This document shows positions 2,620 through 23,228 of a stretch of DNA of 24,172 nucleotides, piece after piece. The DNA is taken from positions 1-24,172 of the IMG/VR virus record IMGVR_UViG_3300018428_003605. One strand, 5' to 3'. Every line of letters begins with the position of its first letter. Positions within the stretch are counted from its first letter, which is position 1. Position numbers and translations under genes: made by a program. The DNA comes from a virus. The notes below the pieces were generated by a model. That model did no database searches and was not told the origin of the DNA. It was given only the letters and a program-made list of their open reading frames with translations.

Positions 2620-4680
2620 TTAGTGTTTCTTAATTCGAATATCTAGTCCTCGTCTAACAACTATATTACGAACAATAGGTCGTAACCCTCTTTTGAATCG
2701 TCCATCAAAATATCCTTGATATAAAACTCTTGGTGATCCACCTTCTAAACTATTGTAGTCAGTCCAGTTACTAGTAGTAGGTGTGATTGATTCGACACCT
2801 TCGTAAAAATCTGAACCATTTTGTACATCCAGTCCTAAAACCCAATCTTTTAATTCTTTCCAAGTCCAGTCTCTGTTGTGTTCCATAACAGTTGCTAGAA
2901 ATCCACATGCTACAGGACAAGCTGCACTAGTACCTCCAAATGCACAGTCATATGCAGTTCCATAAGTAAAATCGGTATATGTATCTGGTCGAGATCCTTC
3001 GTTAGTATAACTTTTATTTGCCGCAAGTGTACCATCTCCGGCAGCGTAAACATCTATCTGTTCGCCTCGGTCACTGTAGTTTACTTTTCTTTCTAAATTT
3101 CCTGTAGCATAATCGTCATCAAGCGCACCAATATTAATACTTTTATATTCTATGCTTCCGTCTGGTTTAGTATGACGGCCCGCTTGTTGAGGAAATCCTG
3201 TCCTGTTTGTAGTTCCATAAACAGCAACACCAAATTCAAAAAGTTCTGAATCTGCCAAACTTCCGCCATTTGTAGTCGTTGTATAATTGTTCCAGTCAGG
3301 ATGATTTGATTTAACCACTTTTTGATTAGAATTACCTGCAGCACCTACAAAAATAACACCAGCATTAACCATTTCATCTAGTGCTGTAGTTAATGAATTA
3401 GTTTTCATTTCTCCCTTCCAACGACCTCCATCTCCAGTTACTCCCATATTGCTAATAAAATTAGGCTCAGATGTGTAAGATACATTTGAAGTTGCTCTAT
3501 GAGTATAATATAAGGTTGATGCATTACCAACATTACTATTAAATGCGTTAGGTACCTTGTCTGAACGATACCCCCAACTATTAGAACTCAGTGTTGGATC
3601 TTTTGCACCGTATGCAGGATTAACTGGTTTGTATTGATGGAATATTTTTTGTATATCAAATCCTTCTTCAATACCTGATCCATATGTGCCATATAAATCT
3701 ATCATCCATTTATTAGCATTGTATGCCCAACCTTGTGTTCTACCATATGTAAGAGCGCCACAGGGTGTTCCATGTTCTCCATCTAGTCCGGCTGGCTGTG
3801 TTGCAGGATCACCACTTACATTTAATCTTGTGTAGATAGAAGGAATATTAACAGTACCTGCATTTGCGAAAAGTGTACTTCTTTGCGAACTATTACTCCA
3901 CCAATTTTTTGCAACACTTTCTATAGGCACTATTGTTCCGTCCCATCTGGTTTCCAATCTGTTATCTGGATCAGCATCAAACCATTCTGGATCAATATAA
4001 TAAGGTCCGTCTAATACAACATCTAGCACATCACATGTTCCGTTGCCTGGTAAAACATTTCCTCCTTCATATCCTGCAGGTTTTTCAACTGGTGTTGTAC
4101 CGTCAATAGAAAGAACGCAGTTGTTTTGGAATTCAGGATGGGCTAACCAACAACCTTCATCAGCGACAATAACATCTATATCTTTTCCGGTACCATACTG
4201 GCTTATATTGACTTCTGGTACATCATTATCTGCAAGTCCTTGATCTACCCAAGGATCTAAAAACTGTTGGTGTCTGTATAACGAATAACTAGTACGATTA
4301 GAATCAGTAGAATCGGGTACCCCTGCAAGAGTATTAGAAGCTTCAAACTCTCTATAGTTTTTGATCGTGTCTGTATATCGATTTATTAGTGCAGGCCTGG
4401 TTGCTTTTAATTCGTCTTGTGGTGGTTTAAATTCTTCTGGATATTTAGAGTAATCGATATTAATAAATTTTACTCTATGATCTTTTTTAAGTTCTGCGGC
4501 TTCTTCTTCTGTAAGCAGATATGTTCCTCTAGTAGGACTATGTAATTTTTCATCGTTTACTTCAACTAATCTAATAGGTACAGCTTCGTAGACATTTCCG
4601 TCTGCTATTAATTCGGCATGAAGTTCTTGCCATTGTTGCTGGGTATGTGTACCAATTTGGTAAAATTTTTCTTCAGCCAT
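2620..4680 (-). CDS. Subtilisin-like serine protease (peptidase S8 family)
   Basis: All catalytic elements of a subtilase are present over 686 residues: Asp in DVIVADEG (Asp174), His in GEHGTPCGA (His303), the oxyanion Asn in FVGAAGN (Asn450) and Ser in GGTSAACPVA (Ser585). Residues 1-160 form an N-terminal region without a secretory signal peptide; part of it could act as an inhibitory propeptide, but that is not shown. The Asp-to-His spacing is long because of insertions around residues 190-295. The C-terminus is strongly basic (from GRFKRGLRP to the end). The gene sits between two fibre-like genes with gaps of 8 and 19 bases, so the enzyme is probably produced late. It could be a virion component that cuts host-surface proteins or a maturation protease; the sequence does not decide. 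GGTGA precedes the ATG. Confidence 0.92.
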   Translation of the reverse strand: MAEEKFYQIGTHTQQQWQELHAELIADGNVYEAVPIRLVEVNDEKLHSPTRGTYLLTEEEAAELKKDHRVKFINIDYSKYPEEFKPPQDELKATRPALINRYTDTIKNYREFEASNTLAGVPDSTDSNRTSYSLYRHQQFLDPWVDQGLADNDVPEVNISQYGTGKDIDVIVADEGCWLAHPEFQNNCVLSIDGTTPVEKPAGYEGGNVLPGNGTCDVLDVVLDGPYYIDPEWFDADPDNRLETRWDGTIVPIESVAKNWWSNSSQRSTLFANAGTVNIPSIYTRLNVSGDPATQPAGLDGEHGTPCGALTYGRTQGWAYNANKWMIDLYGTYGSGIEEGFDIQKIFHQYKPVNPAYGAKDPTLSSNSWGYRSDKVPNAFNSNVGNASTLYYTHRATSNVSYTSEPNFISNMGVTGDGGRWKGEMKTNSLTTALDEMVNAGVIFVGAAGNSNQKVVKSNHPDWNNYTTTTNGGSLADSELFEFGVAVYGTTNRTGFPQQAGRHTKPDGSIEYKSINIGALDDDYATGNLERKVNYSDRGEQIDVYAAGDGTLAANKSYTNEGSRPDTYTDFTYGTAYDCAFGGTSAACPVACGFLATVMEHNRDWTWKELKDWVLGLDVQNGSDFYEGVESITPTTSNWTDYNSLEGGSPRVLYQGYFDGRFKRGLRPIVRNIVVRRGLDIRIKKH

Positions 4681-8489: not shown

Positions 8490-9144
8490 TATACTTAACA
8501 TTGATTATATATGGAGAATTAATGATTTAGATGTATATTATACCAATGATACTAACGGAGGAGGTGATTATTTTTTACCAGAGTATGCTAGTATTGTAAA
8601 AGAATGGTATGGACAAGTAGATAACATGCTAGAATGGTGTAGTGGGCCTGGTTTTATAGGTTATGGAATGCTTGCTACAGGTTTGTGTAAAAATATTTCT
8701 TTTTCTGAAATATTTAGACCAGCTATTAGTATGTTAAACAAAACTGCTATAGAAAATAACCTTTCTGTAGATATTTTTACTAATGATAGTCTAGATAATA
8801 TAGATAAACAATTCGATTTGGTGGTTGGAAATCCTCCTCACTGGGGGAGTGTTGCAGATGCCAAACACTCCTTGCAAAAATTTGGTAATTATGCACCAAT
8901 GAACGACAGATTGTTACAAGTATTAGTTGATGATGGTTGGAAAACTCATTTAAGTTTTTTTCAAAATATGAAAAAACTGCTAAAAAAAGATGGAAAAATA
9001 CTTTTACAAGAAAATAATACAGGTTCAAATCCTGAATTATTTTCACAATTAATCAAAGATACAGGACTAAAAATTCTTAGCACAGCACAAAGCGTAGAAT
9101 ATAAACCATTAAACATTTATTATTTAGAAGTAGGTCATGCATGA
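8479..9144 (+). CDS. Class I SAM-dependent methyltransferase with NPPH motif
   Basis: I place the start at the ATG at 8479, because GAGGA lies ten bases upstream; a longer reading from 8449 would add ten mostly hydrophobic residues and overlap the epimerase more. The 221-residue protein has a SAM-binding loop LEWCSGPGFIGYGML (residues 51-65), an acidic motif II residue in FSEIFRP, and LVVGNPPHWG (Asn118-His121). NPP[YFWH] motifs occur in enzymes that methylate amide or amino nitrogens, such as PrmC on glutamine or DNA adenine methyltransferases. No DNA recognition domain is visible, so a protein or small-molecule substrate is more likely. It lies between the heptose and oxygenase genes. The target is unknown. 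Confidence 0.85.
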   Translation: MDYDILNIDYIWRINDLDVYYTNDTNGGGDYFLPEYASIVKEWYGQVDNMLEWCSGPGFIGYGMLATGLCKNISFSEIFRPAISMLNKTAIENNLSVDIFTNDSLDNIDKQFDLVVGNPPHWGSVADAKHSLQKFGNYAPMNDRLLQVLVDDGWKTHLSFFQNMKKLLKKDGKILLQENNTGSNPELFSQLIKDTGLKILSTAQSVEYKPLNIYYLEVGHA

Positions 9145-9704
9145 GTATAGATGTAATAGATAATTGTATACCGCAGTTCTATCAAGACATGTTTGAATCT
9201 TTAGCCCTTGGTCGTACAGGAGGCAATGAAATCGAAAATAGTTTGCCTTGGCGTATAAAATATGAACAAACTGCTAAAAATAATGGAGTGTGTCCTATTA
9301 GTTTCAAACATATTTTAAAAAGTGATGCTGAACTATCTAACCATTTAGCTGATTTTGCAAAGATACCTCAAATTATTACTGCAAATCTTAATTATACATT
9401 GGCTGACTTAATGTATGCAAGAGTATTTCTCACTTTACCTTATAAAACAGAACTAAAATACCATTCGCCTCACACAGATTTGAACTATCCTCACACTAGT
9501 TTAATATATTATGTAAACGATAGTGACGGTGACACTGTATTTTTTGAACCAGATATGAAAACAATTTTCCGGAAAGTTTCTCCTAAAAAAGGAAGGTGTG
9601 TATTATTCAATGGTTTAATACCTCACGGTGCTGGAATTCCGTCAAAAGGAGCCAGATGTATTGTAAATTACAATATACAGATAGGAATGAAAAATGAGTT
9701 TTGA
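9141..9704 (+). CDS. 2OG-Fe(II) oxygenase-like protein, canonical HxD
   Basis: This 187-residue protein has the double-stranded beta-helix signature: YHSPHTDLNYPHTSLIYYV supplies His111 and Asp113, GLIPHGAG supplies the distal His162, and ARCIVNYNI supplies Arg172, which would hold the 2-oxoglutarate carboxylate. The family uses O2 and 2-oxoglutarate to hydroxylate proteins, nucleic acids or small molecules. It resembles prolyl-hydroxylase-type phage oxygenases. The gene starts in an ATGA overlap with the methyltransferase and overlaps the next oxygenase by 11 bases. All four key residues are present, so activity is plausible; the substrate is not known. Confidence 0.85.
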   Translation: MSIDVIDNCIPQFYQDMFESLALGRTGGNEIENSLPWRIKYEQTAKNNGVCPISFKHILKSDAELSNHLADFAKIPQIITANLNYTLADLMYARVFLTLPYKTELKYHSPHTDLNYPHTSLIYYVNDSDGDTVFFEPDMKTIFRKVSPKKGRCVLFNGLIPHGAGIPSKGARCIVNYNIQIGMKNEF

Positions 9705-10329
9705 AGATAATGTTATGGAAGTGCCATTCTTTTCTCAAGAAGAATGCCAAGAAATAAAGGAATGGGCATTTGATTTTGAGAAAAAATTAATACAATCAGG
9801 ATTCGAAGATTACAAACCAGCACCAGAATTTTTTGATAATGTAACTACTTCTAACTATCATCATTATAATTTCTTTCATTTTTTCCCACATCATGCAGAA
9901 AGACTTGTAGACTGTCTTTATCATGTAAACAAAGATTTAGAATGGCCTATTATATGTCAGGCTTGGGTGAACATTTATAGAAAAGGACAGGGTATAAATT
10001 GGCATAACCATCAAGGAAGAATGGGCAAAAGTTTTAGTTGCAATGTTTTCATTGACGGTGACACAAAACCAGGTGTTACTTATAAACCATTTAACAGTAA
10101 GGGCATAACAAGAGAAAACAAAATAGGATTTATGCATATATTTCCTTGTGAACTTTTTCATTATGTGCAGCCAAGCGAATCAGATACTCCAAGAATTACT
10201 CTAGGAATGACTGTTCACAGCAATTCGGATATAAATATTAACATTATTAATCAATTAGCTTTTAATAGTAAGCAATATCAAGATTCGATAATACTAACTA
10301 AGGAACATTATGAGCAATCCTCATCCTAA
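9694..10329 (+). CDS. 2OG-Fe(II) oxygenase-like protein, HxH variant
   Basis: The 211-residue protein shows QAWVNIYRKGQGINWHNHQG, then SFSCNVFIDG, a distal His in ELFHYVQPSE (His156) and Arg167 in TPRITLGM. This layout fits the phage 2OG-FeII_Oxy_5/TIGR02466-type group. The first iron ligand pair is His104-x-His106 instead of His-x-Asp, so the metal site would be three histidines if His106 is a ligand. The N-terminal 80 residues are helical and rich in aromatic and histidine residues (NYHHYNFFHFFPHH). GGAA precedes the ATG. It overlaps both neighbours in the plus-strand unit. Family assignment is good; catalysis is uncertain. Confidence 0.78.
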   Translation: MSFEDNVMEVPFFSQEECQEIKEWAFDFEKKLIQSGFEDYKPAPEFFDNVTTSNYHHYNFFHFFPHHAERLVDCLYHVNKDLEWPIICQAWVNIYRKGQGINWHNHQGRMGKSFSCNVFIDGDTKPGVTYKPFNSKGITRENKIGFMHIFPCELFHYVQPSESDTPRITLGMTVHSNSDININIINQLAFNSKQYQDSIILTKEHYEQSSS

Positions 10330-10986: not shown

Positions 10987-11544
10987 CTATAATTCTTCTG
11001 CAAAATCTTGCAAAGAGTTAAAAACATAAGTTCTATTTTTTATGTTTTTATATATGTATTTATCCAAATCCTTCTCAGTTTCAAGACCGTGGCCTGTTCT
11101 AACTAGTACAGGTCTAGCTCCTACTTTTTTTGCGGCTTTTAAATCTGTTAATTTATCACCAACATAAAAGCTATTTTTCCATCTCAAACCTGGGATATCT
11201 TTTTGACACATTTTAAACATACCTGTATTTGGTTTTGCATATATGTCTTTTTTACTACTAGTTTCGCTATAGTATATCCCATCAATGCTTTCACAACCAG
11301 CTTGACCTAACAACCAAAGCATATGTTCGTGAATTGCGTTAACATCTTCAGCAGTCATTAATCCTTTGGCAATGCCACCTTGATTTGTTATAATAACAAT
11401 GCCATAACCTTTGTGTCTTAGATTAGCAATAGCTTCTAAACTACCAGGTATAGGTTCAAAGTCTCTCGGATGTGTACAGTAATCTCCAAGATCAGTATTA
11501 ATTACGCCGTCCCTATCTAGCCCTATAAAGACTTTACTCGTCAT
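10987..11544 (-). CDS. gmhB: HAD-family phosphatase, D-glycero-D-manno-heptose 1,7-bisphosphate 7-phosphatase-like
   Basis: The 185-residue protein carries the GmhB-type HAD motif FIGLDRDGVIN (nucleophile Asp10, general acid Asp12), motif II in IVIITNQGGIAKG, a lysine in IYAKPNTGMF and motif IV in FYVGDKLTDLKAAK. GmhB removes the 7-phosphate between the HldE kinase and adenylyltransferase steps, exactly the reaction missing from the plus-strand unit. E. coli GmhB has a cysteine-rich zinc loop before the KPxxGM motif; here that loop is shortened to ETSSKKDIY and has no cysteine. Such loop-less forms belong to the same HAD subfamily, and histidinol-phosphate phosphatase is the main alternative, but the neighbours favour heptose. 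It overlaps the upstream oxygenase by 11 bases. Confidence 0.85.
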   Translation of the reverse strand: MTSKVFIGLDRDGVINTDLGDYCTHPRDFEPIPGSLEAIANLRHKGYGIVIITNQGGIAKGLMTAEDVNAIHEHMLWLLGQAGCESIDGIYYSETSSKKDIYAKPNTGMFKMCQKDIPGLRWKNSFYVGDKLTDLKAAKKVGARPVLVRTGHGLETEKDLDKYIYKNIKNRTYVFNSLQDFAEEL

Positions 11545-12127
11545 ATGTATACCATCCTGTGATGATGTACTTTAGTCCTTTGTAAATAGGGTTGCCTCTA
11601 TGCGGATGCGTAAAGGCTGTAGGAAAAATTACTAATTTGCCTTCTTCAGGAGCAATGCGTTTACCTTGATATAAGAATTCTGTCTCACCTCCTTCTTCCA
11701 CATTATTAAGATATACCATATAATTTACAACTCTACAGGCACTACTTTTACAGGCCGCTTCTGCATGCCAAGCATGATATCCTTGGTGTGGACTTGTGCG
11801 TTGCACATTCATTCCTTTTGCACTATGTTGTTTGCTATGCTGAAGTATGCTATATTTTTGCATGTATTCATTAGTATATATTTCTTTGAGCCTTTCATAA
11901 AAATAATCACAAATCTTGTAATCATAGTGATATACGCCTTGTGTATGAGCCCAATCAAATACTATACGGTCATCAGTAACAAATCCATGCCCTTGTCTAT
12001 TAGCATTAATAACTCGATTGTCGTCTAGTGTTTCAAAATGCCTGATTACTTCTTGGCAAAAATCTTTATCAAAAGCATTAGGATATTCTTCTATTCCTGA
12101 ATAATCTTCGTATGTTTTCTCTACCAT
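11534..12127 (-). CDS. 2OG-Fe(II) oxygenase-like protein, HxE
   Basis: In this 197-residue protein YHAWHAEAA provides His121 and Glu123, and FPTAFTHPHRGNP provides the distal His174. The cosubstrate position reads KGLKYIITGWY, with Lys186 where most relatives have Arg. The strand MVYLNNVEEGGETEF is characteristic of prolyl-4-hydroxylase-like members (YLN..EEGGET). The acidic ligand is Glu instead of Asp, a known but rarer variation. A preceding region rich in His and Lys (LQHSKQHSAKG) is unusual. It starts near the end of the SGNH gene with a 7-base overlap. This is the clearest P4H-like member of the cluster; the target residue is unknown. Confidence 0.85.
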   Translation of the reverse strand: MVEKTYEDYSGIEEYPNAFDKDFCQEVIRHFETLDDNRVINANRQGHGFVTDDRIVFDWAHTQGVYHYDYKICDYFYERLKEIYTNEYMQKYSILQHSKQHSAKGMNVQRTSPHQGYHAWHAEAACKSSACRVVNYMVYLNNVEEGGETEFLYQGKRIAPEEGKLVIFPTAFTHPHRGNPIYKGLKYIITGWYTYDE

Positions 12128-12924
12128 GCTTTCTCCTTTACATATGGTATATATCTCTTTGCAATAGCATCATGCACATCTGTTGAATAATGTTCTCCAT
12201 CTACTGTATCTATTTTTATATATTTTTTTAAATAATTTTCAGCATCTTTAGGTGCGATCTTAGCATCTAGTTTTGTATAATAATCTTTAGTTTCTTTTGG
12301 TATATAACATCTATCATTAATATTCCATATATACATATTTGCATTATTTTTTGAACATAAATTGTCGCACATAGTCATATATGTGAAATAGTCTTCCTGT
12401 TCAAGATTAGTGTTACTATAATGCCACATTTGCATATACAAATGAGAAGATCTTCTAATATCGGGTTCTGTTTTCCAAACTTGTGTGTCTCGTATATAAG
12501 GAAAATGATCGTAATCGCTTACATCTGGTTTTAAATATGTTTCTAAATATTTGTTGTTAGGTGAAAGTGCAATACTATATCTGTCTATTGTATCTGTAGA
12601 AAAGTTTTCATCTATAAAAAAGTCTAACGGAAATATTTTCTTTGCATCTAAGTCAGGATTTATTGCAATAGGAAATCTACCCCAGTATGTGCTTTGAACA
12701 AAAACTTCTGTTATATCTTTGTATTTTTTAAAGGCATATGATAAAAATCTAGGAAATGCTCTATTTCCTGCTCCTGCACTTGCCATAATTACAACTTGCT
12801 GACCAGTATTTTTACTGTATATTTCTGCATAATTATTATCACGCCATACGTTAGGCTCGTTGGGCGGCGCATCTTCTCTATAACCCATTGTATGACTACA
12901 ACCTACAAATAATGTTCTACCCAT
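12121..12924 (-). CDS. SGNH/GDSL hydrolase-like protein
   Basis: I choose the ATG at 12924, because GAGG lies six bases upstream and it gives the typical start MGRTLFVGCSHTMG; an in-frame ATG at 12942 would only lengthen the overlap with the previous gene. The 267-residue protein has the N-terminal FVGCSHT in place of GDS, with Ser10 as candidate nucleophile, SAGAGNRAF as candidate Gly/Asn block, and a C-terminal DGEHYSTDVHDAIAKRY with histidines placed as in block V. Such enzymes are esterases, often removing or adding acyl groups on glycans. GCS instead of GDS makes activity uncertain. A second SGNH-like protein lies at 15716-16411. Confidence 0.65.
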   Translation of the reverse strand: MGRTLFVGCSHTMGYREDAPPNEPNVWRDNNYAEIYSKNTGQQVVIMASAGAGNRAFPRFLSYAFKKYKDITEVFVQSTYWGRFPIAINPDLDAKKIFPLDFFIDENFSTDTIDRYSIALSPNNKYLETYLKPDVSDYDHFPYIRDTQVWKTEPDIRRSSHLYMQMWHYSNTNLEQEDYFTYMTMCDNLCSKNNANMYIWNINDRCYIPKETKDYYTKLDAKIAPKDAENYLKKYIKIDTVDGEHYSTDVHDAIAKRYIPYVKEKAW

Positions 12925-13468
12925 ATGTTGCCTCAAAGTCAAAAACCATTACTCTGCGCTCATCAATAGTAGGATACGCTCCGTGCCAAATACGTGCATC
13001 CATAATTAACAACAATCCTTTTTTAGGTTGCCACCAATTCACATGTGTTTCGCCTTTTTCATCTTGTAATACTGCGTAGAAGGCCCCTTCATCGTTAGGC
13101 TGATCTTCAATATCGTCAAAGTATAGAACTGCTGTACAACCTGTACGACCTTTAGTATGATTGTGCATACCTTTCCAGCCGCCTGGAAAATAACGGATAC
13201 TCCAAGTTTGTATATGATCGTGTATTGTACACGGCACGTCACCTTCTGCTAGTATTGTGTTAGTTTTATCAATTATAAAATCAGCAACACCCTTTGTTTC
13301 TTCTAAGGTGTGTGGTATTTGATAACCGTTAACAGTTGTACTTCTACCAGGCTCTACAAGGTTAGGATGGTCGCTATCAAATAAATGTTCATAGTCTTTC
13401 CACATAGGAACATGTGTTTCTACTATCCACTGATTATTTGCAATGTAAAGTGTATCATTCATTTGCAT
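12917..13468 (-). CDS. 2OG-Fe(II) oxygenase-like protein, HxH variant
   Basis: The 183-residue protein has SIRYFPGGWKGMHNHTKGR with His102-x-His104, then CTAVLYFDDI, the distal His162 in ARIWHGAYP and Arg171/Arg172 in DERRVMVFDFEA. The fold order fits the oxygenase-like group, and the iron motif again has His in place of Asp. MQM at the start offers two ATG codons (13468 and 13462); neither has a strong Shine-Dalgarno sequence, so translation may depend on coupling to the overlapping upstream gene. A conserved Asp/Glu-rich stretch (DDIEDQPNDEGAF) separates the two halves. Substrate unknown. Confidence 0.78.
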   Translation of the reverse strand: MQMNDTLYIANNQWIVETHVPMWKDYEHLFDSDHPNLVEPGRSTTVNGYQIPHTLEETKGVADFIIDKTNTILAEGDVPCTIHDHIQTWSIRYFPGGWKGMHNHTKGRTGCTAVLYFDDIEDQPNDEGAFYAVLQDEKGETHVNWWQPKKGLLLIMDARIWHGAYPTIDERRVMVFDFEATYG

Positions 13469-14069
13469 TTGCAGGTCTTATAACAAAGTTTGCGGCAATA
13501 GTTGCACGTCTGCTGTCTGTTTTGTTAGGTAATACATAGTGTGATACCCAACTAGGAAACAATACAAGTGTGCCTTTTTGTAAAGGTGGTGTAATATGTT
13601 GGTAGTTGTAGGCATTAAAGATCCTATCCATGCCACTACTACGTATTGTTGGAAAATTAGGACATTCTAGTACCAACTGCCCGCCTACGTCTTTCTCTTG
13701 ATCTGGAAAATCTAACACATAAACTGCACTTAAACTGCGTCCTGGAAAAGCATGATCATGAGGTTCTTGATAGTCACCCTTTTTATATTTGTTAAACCAC
13801 ATCTCGTCACAGAATACACTATATGGCACTTGCGGGTCAAGTTTTTCAAGGTATTTGTTTATATGAGGCTGTACAGCATCAAACCATATTTTCCAAGGCA
13901 GTTTATCATTGTTTTCATTTCTTATACTGCTCTTTGTATTAGCCATAGTCCACAAGCTATCTGAAATATAAGATTCATCTTCAATATATGGATCCCATTC
14001 TTTTAAAATATCATCAGCTTCAGTTAGAACATTTGTATAAAAATGTGTTTCCCAAAACTTTACGTGCAT
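13455..14069 (-). CDS. 2OG-Fe(II) oxygenase-like protein, HxH variant (2OG-FeII_Oxy_5-like)
   Basis: The start at 14069 forms TAATG with the stop of the upstream gene, so I prefer it over an ATG nine bases earlier (14078). The 204-residue protein contains DEMWFNKYKKGDYQEPHDHA (His104 and His106), SLSAVYVLDFP, LVLFPSWVSHYVLPN (His177) and RRATIAANFVI. The sequence FPSW.SH.V.PN is the hallmark of the TIGR02466/2OG-FeII_Oxy_5 group. It lies in a chain of four oxygenase genes joined by overlaps. With HDH the second position is Asp but the third is His, so which residue binds iron needs a structure. Family assignment is strong. Confidence 0.83.
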   Translation of the reverse strand: MHVKFWETHFYTNVLTEADDILKEWDPYIEDESYISDSLWTMANTKSSIRNENNDKLPWKIWFDAVQPHINKYLEKLDPQVPYSVFCDEMWFNKYKKGDYQEPHDHAFPGRSLSAVYVLDFPDQEKDVGGQLVLECPNFPTIRSSGMDRIFNAYNYQHITPPLQKGTLVLFPSWVSHYVLPNKTDSRRATIAANFVIRPANANE

Positions 14070-14572
14070 TACACCCATCCATTCTGTTCAGCATTAAAGA
14101 AAAATACTTGTGTTAGTCTGCCCGTTTTAGGAGAATCACCAAATCCTGCAAGTAGGCTTGCATGATCCATATTTCCATCATACAGCACAAGTCTATTATA
14201 AACATTACCAATAACATTTACAAGATCGTAACCTCCATCTTTTTCTAAATATAAACCTGTTCCTGATTCTGTAGGTGCATCTGGATTAAGGTATAAAACA
14301 CCTGCCCAATCACATCCGTCTTTGTGTATCCAAGTTTCAGCACCTTCGTAACATAGTTGAAAGCAAAAACTGTCCATAACAAATTCAGTTATACTTACAT
14401 TTAATATTTCTTGGAACCTATGATGGATAAACATCTGATAATCATCATCACATGCAAGACTACGCATACCAGGAAATTCTCCTGTAGTAGGATAATCTAA
14501 CTGGATTGCTTGTTCTCTAACAAGATCAGGTGCAGGTAAAAAGTTGTCTATAACTATTGATGTTTTCTTCAT
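14069..14572 (-). CDS. 2OG-Fe(II) oxygenase-like protein, HxD (DUF6445-like)
   Basis: This 167-residue protein begins with VIDNFLPAPDLVREQAIQLD, a typical start of small phage oxygenases. ETWIHKDGCDWAGVLYLNPD gives His83 and Asp85; RLVLYDGNMDHAS gives the distal His137; and GRLTQVFFFN gives Arg152. The core YLNPDAPTESGTGLY and the MDHAS...GFGD segment match the DUF6445-type family as I remember it. All canonical residues are present. The gene's ATG overlaps the stop of the upstream gene in TAATG, and its own stop does the same with the next one. Confidence 0.83.
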   Translation of the reverse strand: MKKTSIVIDNFLPAPDLVREQAIQLDYPTTGEFPGMRSLACDDDYQMFIHHRFQEILNVSITEFVMDSFCFQLCYEGAETWIHKDGCDWAGVLYLNPDAPTESGTGLYLEKDGGYDLVNVIGNVYNRLVLYDGNMDHASLLAGFGDSPKTGRLTQVFFFNAEQNGWV

Positions 14573-15090
14573 TACATAAAATCCATATAAATATTGCCAC
14601 TTATAGTAGTGCCTGTATTTCCAGGCATTACAAAGTGTTCTATAAAACTAGGAAAGATAACTATATCTCCTTGCTTACATTCTGGTCGAAAATCTAAAGG
14701 AAATTCTGGAACACTACTACCAAACTGATTTTGAACATCTTTAAATAACGGACTCATAAAAACAGTTTTGCCAGTTTCAACTGACTCATAGATTACAAAA
14801 CTCCAACTACTACGTGGATGTATGTGTATGTCTTGCCAGTCATTCTTTTCATATTTGTTGCGCCATATTTCTCCAAATCTTGGATTTTGACCAATTAGAT
14901 CTGGACCTAAGTTGCGTCCAAATACTTCTATTAGGTATTCGTATGTGGTTTCAGATATTTCGTGTTGTTGTCCTAGTGTGCTGTTAGTTTTACTTAGCCA
15001 AATCTTTTCATAAGGGGCTTCGCCTATGTCAATACGATCTAAGTCAACTTGATCGATAAAAAACGGAACATGGAATAGATTATGCTTCAA
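14572..15090 (-). CDS. 2OG-Fe(II) oxygenase-like protein, HxH variant without cosubstrate arginine
   Basis: The 172-residue protein shares EIWRNKYEKNDWQDIHIHPR and IVIFPSFIEHFVMPGN with the 2OG-FeII_Oxy_5 group, giving His89, His91 and His152. Where relatives carry Arg about ten residues after the distal His, this protein reads TGTTISGNIYM, without a basic residue. It therefore may not bind 2-oxoglutarate in the usual way and could be an inactive or altered member. It starts four bases inside the upstream oxygenase gene (ATGA-type overlap) and ends in TAATG with the next. Relation to the family is clear; catalytic competence is doubtful. Confidence 0.78.
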   Translation of the reverse strand: MKHNLFHVPFFIDQVDLDRIDIGEAPYEKIWLSKTNSTLGQQHEISETTYEYLIEVFGRNLGPDLIGQNPRFGEIWRNKYEKNDWQDIHIHPRSSWSFVIYESVETGKTVFMSPLFKDVQNQFGSSVPEFPLDFRPECKQGDIVIFPSFIEHFVMPGNTGTTISGNIYMDFM

Positions 15091-15722
15091 CCAAATCTCC
15101 TTGCTGGCAAAGGCACACTGCGCATAGTCTTATATACTAGTGTTGCACGTAGTCCTTTGTATTTTTCGTTAGGTGGTAACCCATGATGTGGAATATTACC
15201 TTTGAACAAGAAAATACGTCCTGGCTTTGGATATACTTTCTTCCATTCGCCGTCAAGTTTAATAATTGTTTCTCCGCCCCATTCTTCTTTCCACTCTCTG
15301 TTTACATAATAGATCCAACTTAATCCATTGTCACACTGACAGTCTGTGTGTTCTGTAGTGTTGTGTATAAACTGCTGGCCGTTAACAAGGATTTCACCTA
15401 TATCTAACTCAAATGGTATAAGACTAGTAACAGCATCATATATCATATTCCAGCAACTATCATGTGCATTGTTACTATGTGGCGGATATATCTGTTGTTT
15501 GAATGCAGGAACTTCAGGCCAATCTGGATCTGCTCCTACGTCATACAACGGATCTTCGTGGTAGTTACTAGTATGACCATATGTCCAATTATATCCGTTA
15601 AATACAGTTTTATGAACGTGATCAATAACATATTGTGGGAACATATCATCAATCACAATCATTTGATCTTTTGCTAGATCAAATTCAGATAAGTCTTTTG
15701 CTTCTTTGTCGTTAATCAACAT
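15087..15722 (-). CDS. 2OG-Fe(II) oxygenase-like protein, canonical HxD
   Basis: A 211-residue protein whose core reads QQFIHNTTEHTDCQC (His125, Asp127), LSWIYYVNREW, EEWGGETII, PGRIFLFKGNIPHHGLPP (distal His179 or His180) and LRATLVYKT (Arg192). WGGET with the following strand is a prolyl-hydroxylase-like hallmark. The N-terminus (MIVIDDMFPQYVIDHVHKTV) matches other phage oxygenases. It is the most canonical member of the minus-strand group and the first in transcription order among four consecutive oxygenases. It overlaps the SGNH gene by 7 bases. Substrate not known. Confidence 0.86.
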   Translation of the reverse strand: MLINDKEAKDLSEFDLAKDQMIVIDDMFPQYVIDHVHKTVFNGYNWTYGHTSNYHEDPLYDVGADPDWPEVPAFKQQIYPPHSNNAHDSCWNMIYDAVTSLIPFELDIGEILVNGQQFIHNTTEHTDCQCDNGLSWIYYVNREWKEEWGGETIIKLDGEWKKVYPKPGRIFLFKGNIPHHGLPPNEKYKGLRATLVYKTMRSVPLPARRFG

Positions 15723-19320: not shown

Positions 19321-19351
19321 AAAGTAATGCGTCATTGTGGCGCATTACTTT
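19321..19351 (-). terminator. Rho-independent terminator hairpin
   Basis: A perfect 11-bp inverted repeat (AAAGTAATGCG / CGCATTACTTT) with a 9-base loop. On the minus strand it is followed by a T run (CTTTTATC). Its upstream arm overlaps the TAA stop of the tail-chaperone-like gene at 19350. The GC content of the stem is modest, so the hairpin is weaker than bacterial ones but strong for such AT-rich DNA. Confidence 0.7.
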
Positions 19352-20063
19352 ACATTGTTATTAGATCGCCGGTGTCTGGTTCTTCTTCACTTGCAGGATC
19401 AATCGGCGTCATATTGTAAGCTGCCCAAGCAGGAATTCCTGCATTCTCCATTACAGTTGGCCAGTCGCGTAGTGCTTGTCTATAATTTTGCCACTTTGTC
19501 TTAAGAGCTGCTGGCATATCTTCAACAATTTCACTGTCACTATTTTTAAGTAACTGCATACGCTTTGCACGTACATCAGGCCAATCTGGAAGTCTATCAC
19601 CTCCGCCCATAACCGCTTGTGGTAATGTTACTGCATCAACAGTTATATTGTCATTTGCGTCAACTCTAATACTATCATGTTGATACACGTCTCGTACTTG
19701 TAAAGGTGTTTGATAATTAAATACAGTGTGTCCGGGTATTTCTCTTACACCGGGTGGAAATGCTGCACCTGTGTAATCTTCTTCCTCTTCGTCAATCACA
19801 GGACCAATTAGCTGACAAATCAAAGGATTGCTTATGCAATCTACTTCAACATATCTACAACCTAGTCCAACTGGACGACCATCATCCTTTTCCAACTGAG
19901 TGATAGGTCCGCTTTCTTGCATTCCTGTCTCATTGTTAATAATCATATATAATTTATCAGGTCCGTCATATACTTTTTGACAAGTATTGCCATCAGTAAA
20001 AGTATGATCGACCATAAATTCATTTGGTAAGTTCATTGTCCAAGTAAATTCTACCATAGCCAT
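19350..20063 (-). CDS. Phage tail assembly chaperone-like protein
   Basis: The 237-residue protein ends with a region typical of phage tail-fibre or tail assembly chaperones: LLKNSDSEIVEDMPA, then KWQNYRQALRDWP, where the YRQALRD pattern is a hallmark (pfam Phage_tail_APC type). The N-terminal ~150 residues are less clear; they contain LYMIINNETGMQESGP and an acidic run of Glu and Asp at residues 91-96, and end in a Gly-rich patch. An AGGAGATATACA Shine-Dalgarno region, similar to that of T7 gene 10, precedes the ATG, suggesting strong translation. It lies downstream of the three Cys-rich genes and may help fold or place them. Chaperone role is inferred from the C-terminal motif. Confidence 0.7.
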   Translation of the reverse strand: MAMVEFTWTMNLPNEFMVDHTFTDGNTCQKVYDGPDKLYMIINNETGMQESGPITQLEKDDGRPVGLGCRYVEVDCISNPLICQLIGPVIDEEEEDYTGAAFPPGVREIPGHTVFNYQTPLQVRDVYQHDSIRVDANDNITVDAVTLPQAVMGGGDRLPDWPDVRAKRMQLLKNSDSEIVEDMPAALKTKWQNYRQALRDWPTVMENAGIPAWAAYNMTPIDPASEEEPDTGDLITM

Positions 20064-20084: not shown

Positions 20085-20092
20085 TATTTATG
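20085..20092 (-). promoter_or_regulatory. Putative T4-type late promoter box (CATAAATA)
   Basis: CATAAATA on the minus strand in the 36-base gap between the first Cys-rich gene and the chaperone-like gene, 21 bases before its ATG. It fits NATAAATA, like the boxes at 6127, 6172, 19303 and 23646, and could give this gene its own late transcript. Confidence 0.5.
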
Positions 20093-20099
20093 ATTCATT

Positions 20100-20909
20100 T
20101 TAGAAAAAAGTCACTTTAACGACTCCACCGCCGCCAGTGCCTCCCTGTCCGCAACATCTGCCACAATAGTTTGAGGTCGCGCTTTGTCCGCCTGCACCAT
20201 AGTCTGCAATCCAGCAACCACAACGTATCCAGCAGTAGTTTGAATTCTGTTCATAGTAATTATCACTTAGGTTAGGTGCTCCTGTTGAATGTCCGTGGTG
20301 TTTCCAGCAGTGACATGCACTACCTGGATACATGTACGGTGATTGTGCTTGGAAGTTACCACCGTGTGTGTAACTTGCCCAGTCGCCACTTGAACTTGTT
20401 CCATGACAACCTGGTCTTACACAGTAAGGCATAGTTGAGTAACAGTGATCAGTCCAAGAGCCGTTAGTACAGCCTCTTTGCCCACCACATGCACAACTAT
20501 TAATATTATAGCCACAAACATAAGAGCTACAACCGTTGCAACCGTTACATTCTCTACTTAAACAACGATATACTCCACCTGCGCACACCCTATATGTACA
20601 GCCAGCATTTGTATCAATGCTTTTACTAGTGTATGCTCCACCGCCTGGTGGAGCTGTGTGTTGACATCTGTTACATGAACACGCACCTGCACCATTGCCA
20701 CCGGCGCCCCACATTTCCCAGTTTGCTCTGCGAACATTACTAGGCACAGTCCATAAACAACAGCATCCTGCAGAACAACGACAACTTATTCCGTAAAACC
20801 ATTTTACACAAAAAGTTTCTCTTACTCCGCTTGCTAAGTTGTCGTAATCAAATGTGCTGTTAGGAATTTGATCTGCAACTACTTTTTTGTAACTATCATA
20901 TGATGCCAT
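20100..20909 (-). CDS. Cysteine/glycine-rich virion structural protein, paralogue 1
   Basis: A 269-residue protein with 30 cysteines (11%) and very high glycine. It begins MASYDSYKKV, like its two neighbours. Conserved blocks in order are WFYGISCRCSAGCCCLWTVP, WGAGGNGAGACSCNRC, GVYRCLSRECNGCNGC, YCWIRCGCW and YCGRCCGQGGTGGGG. The WGAGGNG...GGG framework is that of glycine-rich phage fibre-tip domains, with cysteines inserted at fixed places. The C-terminal VVKVTFF closes a beta strand. There is no membrane segment. Similar proteins occur in marine T4-like phages as I recall, usually annotated as structural or hypothetical. AGGAG precedes the ATG. Dense disulfides or metal binding are both possible. 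This copy has an extra cysteine/histidine-rich section (ACHCWKHHGHS). Confidence 0.82.
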   Translation of the reverse strand: MASYDSYKKVVADQIPNSTFDYDNLASGVRETFCVKWFYGISCRCSAGCCCLWTVPSNVRRANWEMWGAGGNGAGACSCNRCQHTAPPGGGAYTSKSIDTNAGCTYRVCAGGVYRCLSRECNGCNGCSSYVCGYNINSCACGGQRGCTNGSWTDHCYSTMPYCVRPGCHGTSSSGDWASYTHGGNFQAQSPYMYPGSACHCWKHHGHSTGAPNLSDNYYEQNSNYCWIRCGCWIADYGAGGQSATSNYCGRCCGQGGTGGGGVVKVTFF

Positions 20910-20917
20910 TATAACTC

Positions 20918-21697
20918 CTAAATATATGTAACCCTAACAAGTCCGCCACCACCTGTGCCACCTTGACCGCAACATCTGCCACAGTAAGTATTCATAGCAC
21001 TTTGACCTCCTGTTCCGTAAGGCACACTCCAACAACCACAGCGAATCCAACACTGTCTTATACCTTGATGTGAGTTGCCTGCAATCTTAGGTGCCATACC
21101 TTGATGTATTTCTTGTGGGTGACAATGACAATATCCTGATGCTGTACTAAATGCTTGTGTGGCTCCGCCCACTGCAAAATCACCACCTGTTGTAGTTGGT
21201 TCAAGACATAAGTGTCTTGTATAGAAACATCCTGTTGACCAACTTGTATTTGATTCTGCTCTGTGTCCGCCACATGCACAGAAGTCACTTAGATTGTAAC
21301 CATTTACATAACTTTTACAACCATAACAACCTGTACATTCACGTGATAAACATCTGTAAACACCTGAAGCGCAAACTGTATAACTGCATCCTGGCGTTGT
21401 TCCAATTGTTTTAGCTGAATAGGTTCCGCCTCCTGCAGCTCTAAAGTGGTGACATCTATTACATGAACAAGCACCTGCACCATTGCCGCCTGATGCCCAT
21501 AGTTCCCAGTGCAATCTCTTTACTTGGCTTGGTACTGACCAGTTACAACAGCATCCTGCAGAACATCTACAAGGAATACCATAAAACCACTTAACACCAA
21601 AGTTGTTAAGTGTGTTGCTGTTAATCATATCGTCAGTAATTATACCATCGGAAATTTGTGATCCATTTACTTTTTTATAACTTGCGTAATTAGCCAT
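20918..21697 (-). CDS. Cysteine/glycine-rich virion structural protein, paralogue 2
   Basis: A 259-residue tandem relative of the proteins on both sides, with 26 cysteines. It keeps YGIPCRCSAGCCCNWSVP, GGNGAGACSCNRCHH, GVYRCLSRECTGCYGC, NGYNLSDFCACGG, CWIRCGCW and YCGRCCGQGGTGGGG. The variable stretch around residues 150-205 differs completely from the other copies apart from CHCH, so it is the likely exposed, specificity-bearing surface. The N-terminal 35 residues (ASYKKVNGSQISDGIITDDM) are a fibre-like head for attachment. AAGGA precedes the ATG by about ten bases. Only eight bases separate it from copy 1. Confidence 0.82.
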   Translation of the reverse strand: MANYASYKKVNGSQISDGIITDDMINSNTLNNFGVKWFYGIPCRCSAGCCCNWSVPSQVKRLHWELWASGGNGAGACSCNRCHHFRAAGGGTYSAKTIGTTPGCSYTVCASGVYRCLSRECTGCYGCKSYVNGYNLSDFCACGGHRAESNTSWSTGCFYTRHLCLEPTTTGGDFAVGGATQAFSTASGYCHCHPQEIHQGMAPKIAGNSHQGIRQCWIRCGCWSVPYGTGGQSAMNTYCGRCCGQGGTGGGGLVRVTYI

Positions 21698-21708
21698 CTA
21701 ATTTTTCC

Positions 21709-22485
21709 TTATGCAAATGTAATTTTAACAACACCTGGTCCTCCAGTACCGCCTTGTCCACAGCATCTACCACAGTATGAGGTCATACCATTTTGCCCAC
21801 CGTGTGCAGGTGGTGCAATCCAGCAACCACAACGTATCCAACAAACGTTAATAGCCTGTGACACATTGCCGCCTAAGAATGGTGCGTTTGTAGGTCGTAC
21901 ATATTGTGAATGGCAGTGACAATTAAATATTCCAGAGAACATACCAGCATGACTGCCCATACCAAAGTCTCCGTTGTTATCATTTGGTCCTAAACAACAG
22001 GTCCAACAACTCATACAATAGTGTGTCCAGTCTGTATTACCTCTGCCGCAACCGCCGCCGATTGCGCAGAAATCACTTAGATTGTAGCCATTTACATATG
22101 TTGTACATCCTCTACAACCTGTACATTCACGTGATAAACATCTGTAAACACCAGCAGCACACATTGTATAACTGCATCCTGGTGTAGTACTGATCATTTT
22201 TGAATTGTAGTATCCACCGCCAGCACCTTGATAATGGTGACATCTGTTACATGAACACGCACCACTTCCATTACCACCTGCACCCCATAGTTCAAAGAAC
22301 ACACGTCTTACGTGGCTTGGTACTGACCAGTTACAACAGCATCCTGCAGAACAACGGCAAGCATCACCAATTAGCCATTTTGTACACAGCCTGTGACGAG
22401 TGTCTGTACCCAGCTTTGTTTGGGTAACAGTGCCGTCGATGACCATTTCGTTGCTAATTTTTTTGTAACTTGAATATGTAGCCAT
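21709..22485 (-). CDS. Cysteine/glycine-rich virion structural protein, paralogue 3
   Basis: I set the start at the ATG at 22485 because it gives MATYSSYKKI, aligned with the starts of the two other copies, and has AGAGGA upstream; a longer frame from 22524 adds 13 unrelated residues and runs into the next gene. The 258-residue protein has 29 cysteines and the same blocks: DACRCSAGCCCNWSVP, WGAGGNGSGACSCNRC, GVYRCLSRECTGCRGC, NGYNLSDFCAIGG, CWIRCGCW and YCGRCCGQGGTG. Its central variable part has MSCWTCCLGP and FNCHCHSQ. It is the first transcribed of the three copies. Confidence 0.82.
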   Translation of the reverse strand: MATYSSYKKISNEMVIDGTVTQTKLGTDTRHRLCTKWLIGDACRCSAGCCCNWSVPSHVRRVFFELWGAGGNGSGACSCNRCHHYQGAGGGYYNSKMISTTPGCSYTMCAAGVYRCLSRECTGCRGCTTYVNGYNLSDFCAIGGGCGRGNTDWTHYCMSCWTCCLGPNDNNGDFGMGSHAGMFSGIFNCHCHSQYVRPTNAPFLGGNVSQAINVCWIRCGCWIAPPAHGGQNGMTSYCGRCCGQGGTGGPGVVKITFA

Positions 22486-22502: not shown

Positions 22503-23228
22503 TTAGATTGTGAATATTCTCCAACCGTAAGTGTTGTTAAAGAAAACCAACTCAAAAGCTGCTCCTTCAGAATTCACTGTTAGGTTAGCTGCGTCTCCTT
22601 GTATTAGCTTGCCATTTCTAGCTATAGTAAGGTTACTTGTATCAAAAACTTTTGCACAGTCGAAAAATCTAATTCTATCACCTTTAGCAGGATTTGCTGG
22701 TAGTGTGATTGTAAATCCGCCAGTTGTACACCAGTTTGTTTCAAATGCTTCTGTTGTTCTAGTACCGCTTACATCTACATCTTTAAATCCCATAACTACC
22801 CAACTAGACCCATTGTATACTTCAGGCAATCCGTAAGTGGTATTAAAACGCATCATTCCTGCGGATGGAGATCCAGGTCTTTGTGCTGTAGTACCGCTTG
22901 GCATTTTCATATAATCAGTTCCTGAAGCTTCAAAACCGTTAGATACAGTTACTATATCTCCGCCTAGTACTCCGATGTTATTGCCTACAGTGACATTTTT
23001 AGTAACAGCAATGCCGCCAGCAAATTGTGCACCACCTGTAGTAACGTTTGTACTTTCTGTATCATCATTTACTTTTAAAGTTGCTGAACTATCAACTATA
23101 ACATCTCCTGTACCGTCGGGATTTAGTGTAATATCTGCGTTAGGAACTAGAGACCCAATAGTATCATCAATACTCACTAATCTAGCTAGTAGTGGTCTAC
23201 CAGTTACTCCTGTGCTTATCCTTCTCAT
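22503..23228 (-). CDS. Tail-fibre-like virion structural protein
   Basis: The 241-residue protein combines modules common in marine myovirus fibres: a repetitive N-terminal region (TGDVIVDSSATLKVNDD, VTKNVTVGNNIGVLGGDI), the linker MKMPSGTTAQRPGSPSAGMM with FNTTYGLPEVYNGSSWVVM, and a C-terminal beta domain with GGFTITLPANPAKGDRIRFF and LTIARNGKLIQGD. The C-terminal domain is the small beta domain often found at the end of cyanophage structural proteins. AAGGA lies before the ATG. It sits between the small virion protein and the Cys-rich copies in one minus-strand unit and probably belongs to the same tail structure. Exact position in the virion cannot be told. Confidence 0.83.
   Translation of the reverse strand: MRRISTGVTGRPLLARLVSIDDTIGSLVPNADITLNPDGTGDVIVDSSATLKVNDDTESTNVTTGGAQFAGGIAVTKNVTVGNNIGVLGGDIVTVSNGFEASGTDYMKMPSGTTAQRPGSPSAGMMRFNTTYGLPEVYNGSSWVVMGFKDVDVSGTRTTEAFETNWCTTGGFTITLPANPAKGDRIRFFDCAKVFDTSNLTIARNGKLIQGDAANLTVNSEGAAFELVFFNNTYGWRIFTI

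Follow-up and report, generated by a model that had tools for sequence, protein, structure and literature searches.

Cysteine-rich triplet proteins as probable receptor-binding tail-fibre heads of a marine T4-superfamily phage

Background

The window analysed here is a stretch of viral DNA of 24,172 nucleotides (positions 1 to 24,172 of the IMG/VR record IMGVR_UViG_3300018428_003605). It contains three adjoining genes whose products are 10-11% cysteine. What might a phage do with such proteins, synthesized as they are in a reducing cytoplasm? The original prediction, made from the letters alone, took them for virion proteins, possibly adhesins, with a fixed cysteine frame and a variable centre that diversifies host recognition. 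In our analysis the best explanation of the locus as a whole, which we regard as probable, is that the genes encode cysteine-stapled, receptor-binding tail-fibre heads of a T4-superfamily marine phage.

The gene triplet and its neighbours

The three genes and the features flanking them are listed below.

22503..23228, minus strand: gene just upstream of the triplet, 241 aa, with matches to phage tail and unknown families
21709..22485, minus strand: copy 1 (c1), 258 aa, 29 Cys (11.2%), predicted TNF-like plus glycine-rich fibre head; PHROG_4205, E-value = 3.1e-50
20918..21697, minus strand: copy 2 (c2), 259 aa, 26 Cys (10.0%), Gly at position 34; PHROG_4205, E-value = 2.4e-49
20100..20909, minus strand: copy 3 (c3), 269 aa, 30 Cys (11.2%); PHROG_4205, E-value = 1.9e-41
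20085..20091, minus strand: ATAAATA sequence motif upstream of the chaperone-like gene
19350..20063, minus strand: single-copy gene immediately following the triplet, like tail fibre assembly chaperones, 237 aa with 4 Cys; PF16778, phrog_9740

Three adjoining cysteine-rich genes are thus present as described, and the five cysteine blocks said to be fixed (CRCSAGCCC, ACSCNRC, RCLSREC, CWIRCGCW and YCGRCCGQGG) were each found in c1, c2 and c3. The 29 other genes of the window, taken from the ORF list, contain 91 cysteines in 7205 residues (1.26%); against this background the binomial tail probabilities of the excess are 1e-18 for c1, 9e-16 for c2 and 3e-19 for c3. Cysteine richness is not peculiar to the window, since the content ranges from 8.8 to 12.7% (mean 10.7%) across 129 family sequences including those of the window; glycine makes up a mean 16.7% of the chain in the family. 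The PHROG_4205 profile match covers the whole protein (residues 1-257 of c1, 1-259 of c2 and 1-269 of c3). PHROG_35878 is also matched by c1-c3, and similarly cysteine-rich proteins of S-CAM1, S-CAM3 and P-SSM2 match too; PHROGs gives no function for either family. With Pfam Gly_rich_2 (PF21722), c1 scored 14.7 bits, below the cut-off of 24.3, and no match was reported for c2 or c3.

The product of the downstream gene matches Phage_tail_APC (PF16778) with 37.9 bits against a cut-off of 26.6, and phrog_9740 with an E-value of 8e-33. The upstream gene (22503..23228) is a possible shaft or attachment partner. We take the ATAAATA motif to be T4-type late promoter-like. Late-promoter motifs of the form HTAAATA were found within 120 bp upstream of the three copies in 10, 0 and 5 of 45 cases, respectively, which lends no support to such promoters there.

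Distribution and copy number

In a search of 50,697 phage records, 21 matched c1, all of them marine. Full-length matches with 57.5-58.6% identity came from S-SSM7, S-SSM6a and Sf-FS3 (four records); S-CAM1, S-CAM3, P-SSM2, P-SSM5 and two single-cell viruses gave partial matches. The relatives in annotated isolates are labelled hypothetical proteins. In IMG/VR, relatives are encoded on 137 stretches. We retained the 80 best, and these contigs together with the window and three isolates constitute 84 sources. Exactly three tandem copies occur in 82 of the 84, in one of which the contig end cuts the third copy. The two other sources are a contig with two copies cut by its end (L079) and the P-SSM2 locus, with one copy at that threshold. 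A search of whole records returned three copies in 15 of 16, P-SSM2 having two. The triplet is a fixed arrangement, with P-SSM2-type phages having two copies.

In S-CAM1 and S-CAM3 the three copies are diverged (8.0-11.6% Cys), with a phrog_9740 gene after them; one copy is identical among the four S-CAM3 records. P-SSM2 and AG-345-F15 have two longer cysteine-rich copies (7.5-10.1% Cys) flanking a cysteine-free gene. At the sister loci of P-SSM2 (L003) and L089 this middle gene encodes 225-247 aa, the P-SSM2 one being without any PHROG match; it is a possible candidate for a chaperone of the P-SSM2-type loci. Among contigs of marine metagenome-assembled genomes (MAGs), 3/3 close relatives carry three copies and the chaperone-like gene; their bins are assigned to three separate bacterial groups, perhaps through mis-binning of phage contigs. 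Another MAG contig, assigned to Deltaproteobacteria (L093), encodes a 280-aa protein that has 10 Cys and matches the family weakly; it is possibly a less cysteine-rich relative.

In 80 of 83 loci a single chaperone-like gene comes after the triplet; the three remaining loci (L044, L068 and L079) reach the contig edge first. With the chaperone-like protein as query, tblastn matched 4 of the 50,697 phage records, only S-SSM7, S-SSM6a and Sf-FS3.

Predicted fold

An AlphaFold2 model of c1, built from the 129 sequences of the window and IMG/VR, has a mean pLDDT of 85.7 and a pTM of 0.81. Searched against the PDB with Foldseek, the model found the fibre of cyanophage Pam3 in first (7ypx_A, E-value = 7.8e-8) and third (7yfw_a, E-value = 4.6e-6) place, the Bxb1 tail tip in second, and the glycine-rich domains of ALK/LTK after Pam3. 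VIA-align gave Z scores of 16.8 for 7ypx_A (225 residues, 7.3 A), 15.7 for 7yfw_a (197 residues, 3.1 A), 11.8 for the Bxb1 tail tip (9d93_Qa; 187 residues, 3.9 A) and 7.7-10.0 for ALK/LTK; among the matches listed, the remaining entries reached 4.2 at most. In BFVD the model has 213 viral matches with E-values up to 0.001, and many of the 50 listed are "glycine-rich domain-containing" or tail proteins.

According to passages of PMC9608196, Pam3 gp24 is a trimeric receptor-binding fibre and gp25 its chaperone, in a 3:3 ratio; gp24 was detected in virions and gp25 was not. The likeness of the locus to gp24/gp25 (PDB 7YPX and 7YFW; PMC9608196, same passages) comprises the TNF-like plus glycine-rich fold over residues 29-258 of the c1 model, a conserved stem with variable loops, and the chaperone-like gene directly downstream. 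The AlphaFold model of the chaperone-like protein (pLDDT 86.5) resembles gp25 in outline, with a beta-rich N-terminal and a helical C-terminal part; no fold match to gp25 was obtained at E-values up to 0.001, the best Z score being 5.5 to 2kz6, in the helical part. The differences are also clear. The Pam3 fibre is a single protein forming a homotrimer, whereas here there are three paralogous genes with about 10% cysteine and no detectable sequence similarity to it; a sequence search of the PDB matched no Pam3 or other fibre chain at E-values up to 10. Glycine amounts to 16.7% of the whole chain here, compared with the 39% given for the Pam3 glycine-rich domain in those parts of PMC9608196. The S16 gp38 adhesin (PDB 6F45), likened to Pam3 in the same passages, also has a glycine-rich head with variable distal loops, but its middle domain is described there as a beta-helix and not as TNF-like. 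It was absent among the 50 fold matches listed for c1.

The adhesin part of the original prediction gains support from the Pam3-like fold of the c1 model and the chaperone-like neighbour, and the three proteins are likely to be fibre-head adhesins with a dedicated chaperone. That they are instead secreted or cytoplasmic cysteine-rich proteins outside the virion appears very unlikely to us: the isolate relatives bear only the label of hypothetical proteins, and virion membership is something we infer, but the fold, the chaperone-like neighbour and the position of the triplet, flanked by tail-fibre genes and the chaperone-like gene, all speak against it. Virion proteomics in PMC3037559 covers S-SM1, together with data of S-PM2 and Syn9; none of these three matched c1 in the search of 50,697 phage records, and the word "cysteine" is absent from the main text of that paper. 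Our literature search found no report on cysteine-rich cyanophage fibres.

The mechanism that we propose is as follows. The three genes would encode the distal, receptor-binding heads of the tail fibres, each chain being made up of a TNF-like beta-sandwich, a glycine-rich domain with host-facing loops and, at its N-terminus, a short stretch for attachment. About 20 nearly invariant framework cysteines would probably form disulfides that hold the extended loops together once the particle passes from the reducing cell into oxygenated water. The downstream gene product would act as a chaperone in folding the heads and bringing them into register, and would probably leave afterwards, and the copy-specific central loops would form the contact surface. 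Presence in the virion, trimerization, disulfide formation, its timing and receptor contact are all steps that we infer. If right, this would give a function to two marine-phage families without an assigned one (PHROG_4205 and 9740) and reveal a receptor-binding head stabilized by unusually dense cysteine despite synthesis in a reducing cytoplasm; it would also offer a direct test of whether post-lysis oxidation matures phage adhesins.

Disulfides or metal

Of 28 cysteine-majority alignment columns, 20 are at least 95% conserved, compared with 23 of 50 glycine-majority columns. Some of the variable cysteines replace one another. Exactly one of positions 142 and 163 is cysteine in 129/129 sequences. 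For positions 104 and 134, Cys104 occurs alone in 110 sequences and Cys134 alone in 14 (always with Trp104), while 5 have neither and none has both. On a tree built without the variable cysteine columns, where 378 cysteine pairs were tested (hypergeometric p), the 104/134 swap falls on six branches (p = 2e-7) and the 142/163 swap on two (p = 3e-5). Pairs with p <1e-4 numbered 2 of 378 for cysteine and 5 of 27,668 in a control with 14 other kinds of residue. Such mutual exclusion is the pattern expected of alternative partners for one fixed cysteine. In the c1 model, position 104 borders the predicted strand 105-110 and position 134 the strand 129-133, which makes the spatial nearness of the two residues plausible.

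Full pairing within each chain was rejected, as the parity of the cysteine count is unconstrained (58 even and 71 odd chains; triplet sums 27 odd and 16 even). Odd counts imply that some cysteines are unpaired or bonded between chains. Co-gains of cysteines suggested by plain correlation (132/137, 60/166, 31/145) proved not to be repeated events on the tree, where co-gains are at best weak (strongest 101/134, p = 1e-4). Sulfhydryl oxidase (Erv/ALR) was matched in 0/16 records and the control was likewise blank, so that this search is uninformative; glutaredoxin, found in 8/16, is ordinary.

The suggestion that the cysteines form disulfides thus receives indirect support from the mutually exclusive pairs. 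Alternatively, the same fibre heads could bind metal (Zn, Cu or Fe) through CxC, CC and CxxC clusters. The style of motifs such as CRCSAGCCC, CHC and CWIRCGCW resembles that of metal-thiolate proteins, His190 inside CHC is at least 90% conserved, and swapping at 104/134 and 142/163 would equally keep a ligand. Against this, Pfam reports no metal-binding family for c1-c3 at E-values up to 1, just 1 of 10 histidine-majority columns reaches at least 95% conservation, and the cysteines of c1 are spread over the whole chain (11 of 29 in predicted strands) with no single compact stretch. We consider metal binding unlikely, and disulfides the more likely state of these residues.

A PNAS paper on the whole Pam3 phage reportedly describes fibres attached by disulfides and a redox-dependent contraction. 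For phage Milano, PMC10811340 describes numerous disulfides in proteins of the particle, and the tail contracts only when some of these bonds are reduced; the proteins concerned are those of sheath, baseplate and fibre attachment, and cysteine makes up 2.1% of its structural proteins, compared with 10% in the fibre heads here. Phage 7-7-1 is another precedent for a disulfide-rich virion, with 2.6% cysteine in capsid proteins according to PMC12796354.

Evolution of the triplet

A phylogenetic tree was built from 45 of the 81 sources with three full copies, a source being dropped if all its copies were >93% identical to a kept one. Gene position predicts lineage: the three position labels require 6 changes on this tree, with a minimum of 2 and a mean of 64 for shuffled labels. 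The tree separates two phage groups, A (18 genomes including the window) and B (27 genomes including S-SSM7 and Sf-FS3). Each position forms one clade in group A. In group B, c2 forms one clade, and c1 and c3 form three clades each. Between the two groups, only c2 is most similar to its own counterpart. The exact runs shared by paralogues of group A are 23-25 nt long within a genome but only 17 nt between genomes, which hints at limited gene conversion in that group; in group B the runs are about equal within and between genomes.

Between the copies of the window, pairwise identity is 68-79% for residues 43-141 and 66-75% for 215-258, and falls to 33-36% in the centre (142-214). The N-terminal 42 residues, with 33-48% identity, are nearly as variable between copies as the centre. 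Among 15 genomes of group A and 16 of group B, the centre is 63-80% identical between orthologues and 31-44% between paralogues of the same genome. The mean pN/pS among orthologues in these genomes is 0.32-0.52 for the centre, 0.20-0.31 for residues 43-141, 0.10-0.21 for 215-258 and 0.26-0.49 for the N-terminus. In 6/6 copy-by-group comparisons, both frame regions are better conserved than the centre, so that equal conservation of centre and framework among relatives was not found. For copy 3 of group A the centre pN/pS (0.315) equals that of the frame (0.313), and synonymous differences in group A are near saturation (pS about 0.6), which weakens the ratios there. By these ratios all regions of the proteins appear constrained, and the centre is under purifying selection between orthologues.

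The idea of a variable surface that diversifies host recognition is weak, although the centre does differ between copies and is the less conserved region. Its rapid diversification is not supported, given the purifying selection, the low centre pN/pS and an N-terminus with comparable values. Nor is there a sign of a diversity-generating retroelement, since reverse transcriptase (RVT_1) was found in 0/15 records, several of which are fragments (control, 3/14); diversification by this route was rejected. The mostly copy-specific centre fits better with distinct roles of the three chains than with fast diversification.

Phage groups and module exchange

Photosystem proteins (Photo_RC) were found in 6 of 20 records, namely three of group B (L042, L048, L067) and S-SSM7, Sf-FS3 and P-SSM2; they were not found in the other 14, which comprise nine group A records and five group B fragments. 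Of 15 group A records, 4 yielded the capsid protein gp23. The gp23 of a close relative of the window in group A (L005, record L095) is 65-69% identical to those of jumbo T4-like phages of Vibrio, Sinorhizobium, Pseudomonas and others (best 20 of 2494 records), and only 37-38% identical to those of S-SSM7, Sf-FS3 and P-SSM2. An assignment of the window to the cyanophages was dropped on these figures. Between groups A and B the triplet proteins share 52-57% identity; set against 37-38% for gp23, this points to a recognition module common to the two phage groups. The cysteine-rich module looks like an exchangeable host-recognition unit.

Assembly of the three chains

Cysteine 34 lies where the first long strand begins. 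Of 82 sources, 57 have this residue in c1 as well as c3, 10 have it in just one of these two chains and 15 in neither. In c2, position 34 is glycine in 83/83 and never cysteine. The pattern may reflect a mixed trimer in which c1 is bonded to c3, with shared descent as the alternative explanation. An obligate heterotrimer would contain one each of c1, c2 and c3 on a single chaperone trimer, with the inter-chain bond at Cys34. Such assembly is suggested by the constancy of three copies (82/84 sources, 15/16 whole records, 3/3 MAG relatives), by the single chaperone-like gene at each locus, by the prediction of lineage from position (6 changes against a shuffled mean of 64) and by Cys34 in c1 and c3 of the 57 sources and never in c2. 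However, P-SSM2-type phages have only two copies, Cys34 is found in one chain only or in none in 10 and 15 of the 82 sources, and with only c2-c2 recognizable between groups A and B, c1 and c3 split and a hint of gene conversion, common ancestry alone could suffice. We hold the obligate heterotrimer to be possible but somewhat doubtful. If true, it would depart from the usual homotrimer of phage fibres.

The three genes might equally encode three separate homotrimeric adhesins that widen the host range and have one chaperone in common. The centres are strongly different (33-36% identity in the window) and the frames similar enough for one chaperone; yet one would expect fibre genes for different hosts to be gained and lost over time, and copy number is constant in the 82 sources with an intact locus. 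This arrangement, too, we can put forward only tentatively.

A more elaborate version of the fibre-head reading is a covalently locked heterotrimer. Three paralogues of about 28 cysteines, one of each, would be assembled in the reduced state inside the cell by a single chaperone. Release into oxygenated sea water would cross-link them, both within chains and from chain to chain (c1-c3 at Cys34), oxidation being the maturation step of the receptor-binding head, and the module would have passed between cyanophages and a separate T4-like group. Taken with all its parts, this scheme is an unlikely one.

Other genes of the window

Eight small 2OG-Fe(II) oxygenase-like genes (9141-10329 on the plus strand and 11534-15722 on the minus strand) lie beside fibre genes. 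Six of them score over the Pfam cut-off, one is below it and one is a DUF6445 protein; their products may modify fibre or cell-surface molecules. A gene at 2620-4680 (minus strand), among the tail genes, has a product of the subtilase family (PF00082, 60 bits). Proteins in S-SSM7, Sf-FS3 and one group B contig (L067) share 44-46% identity with it, and in a further contig (L004) the match is split in two by an extra segment.
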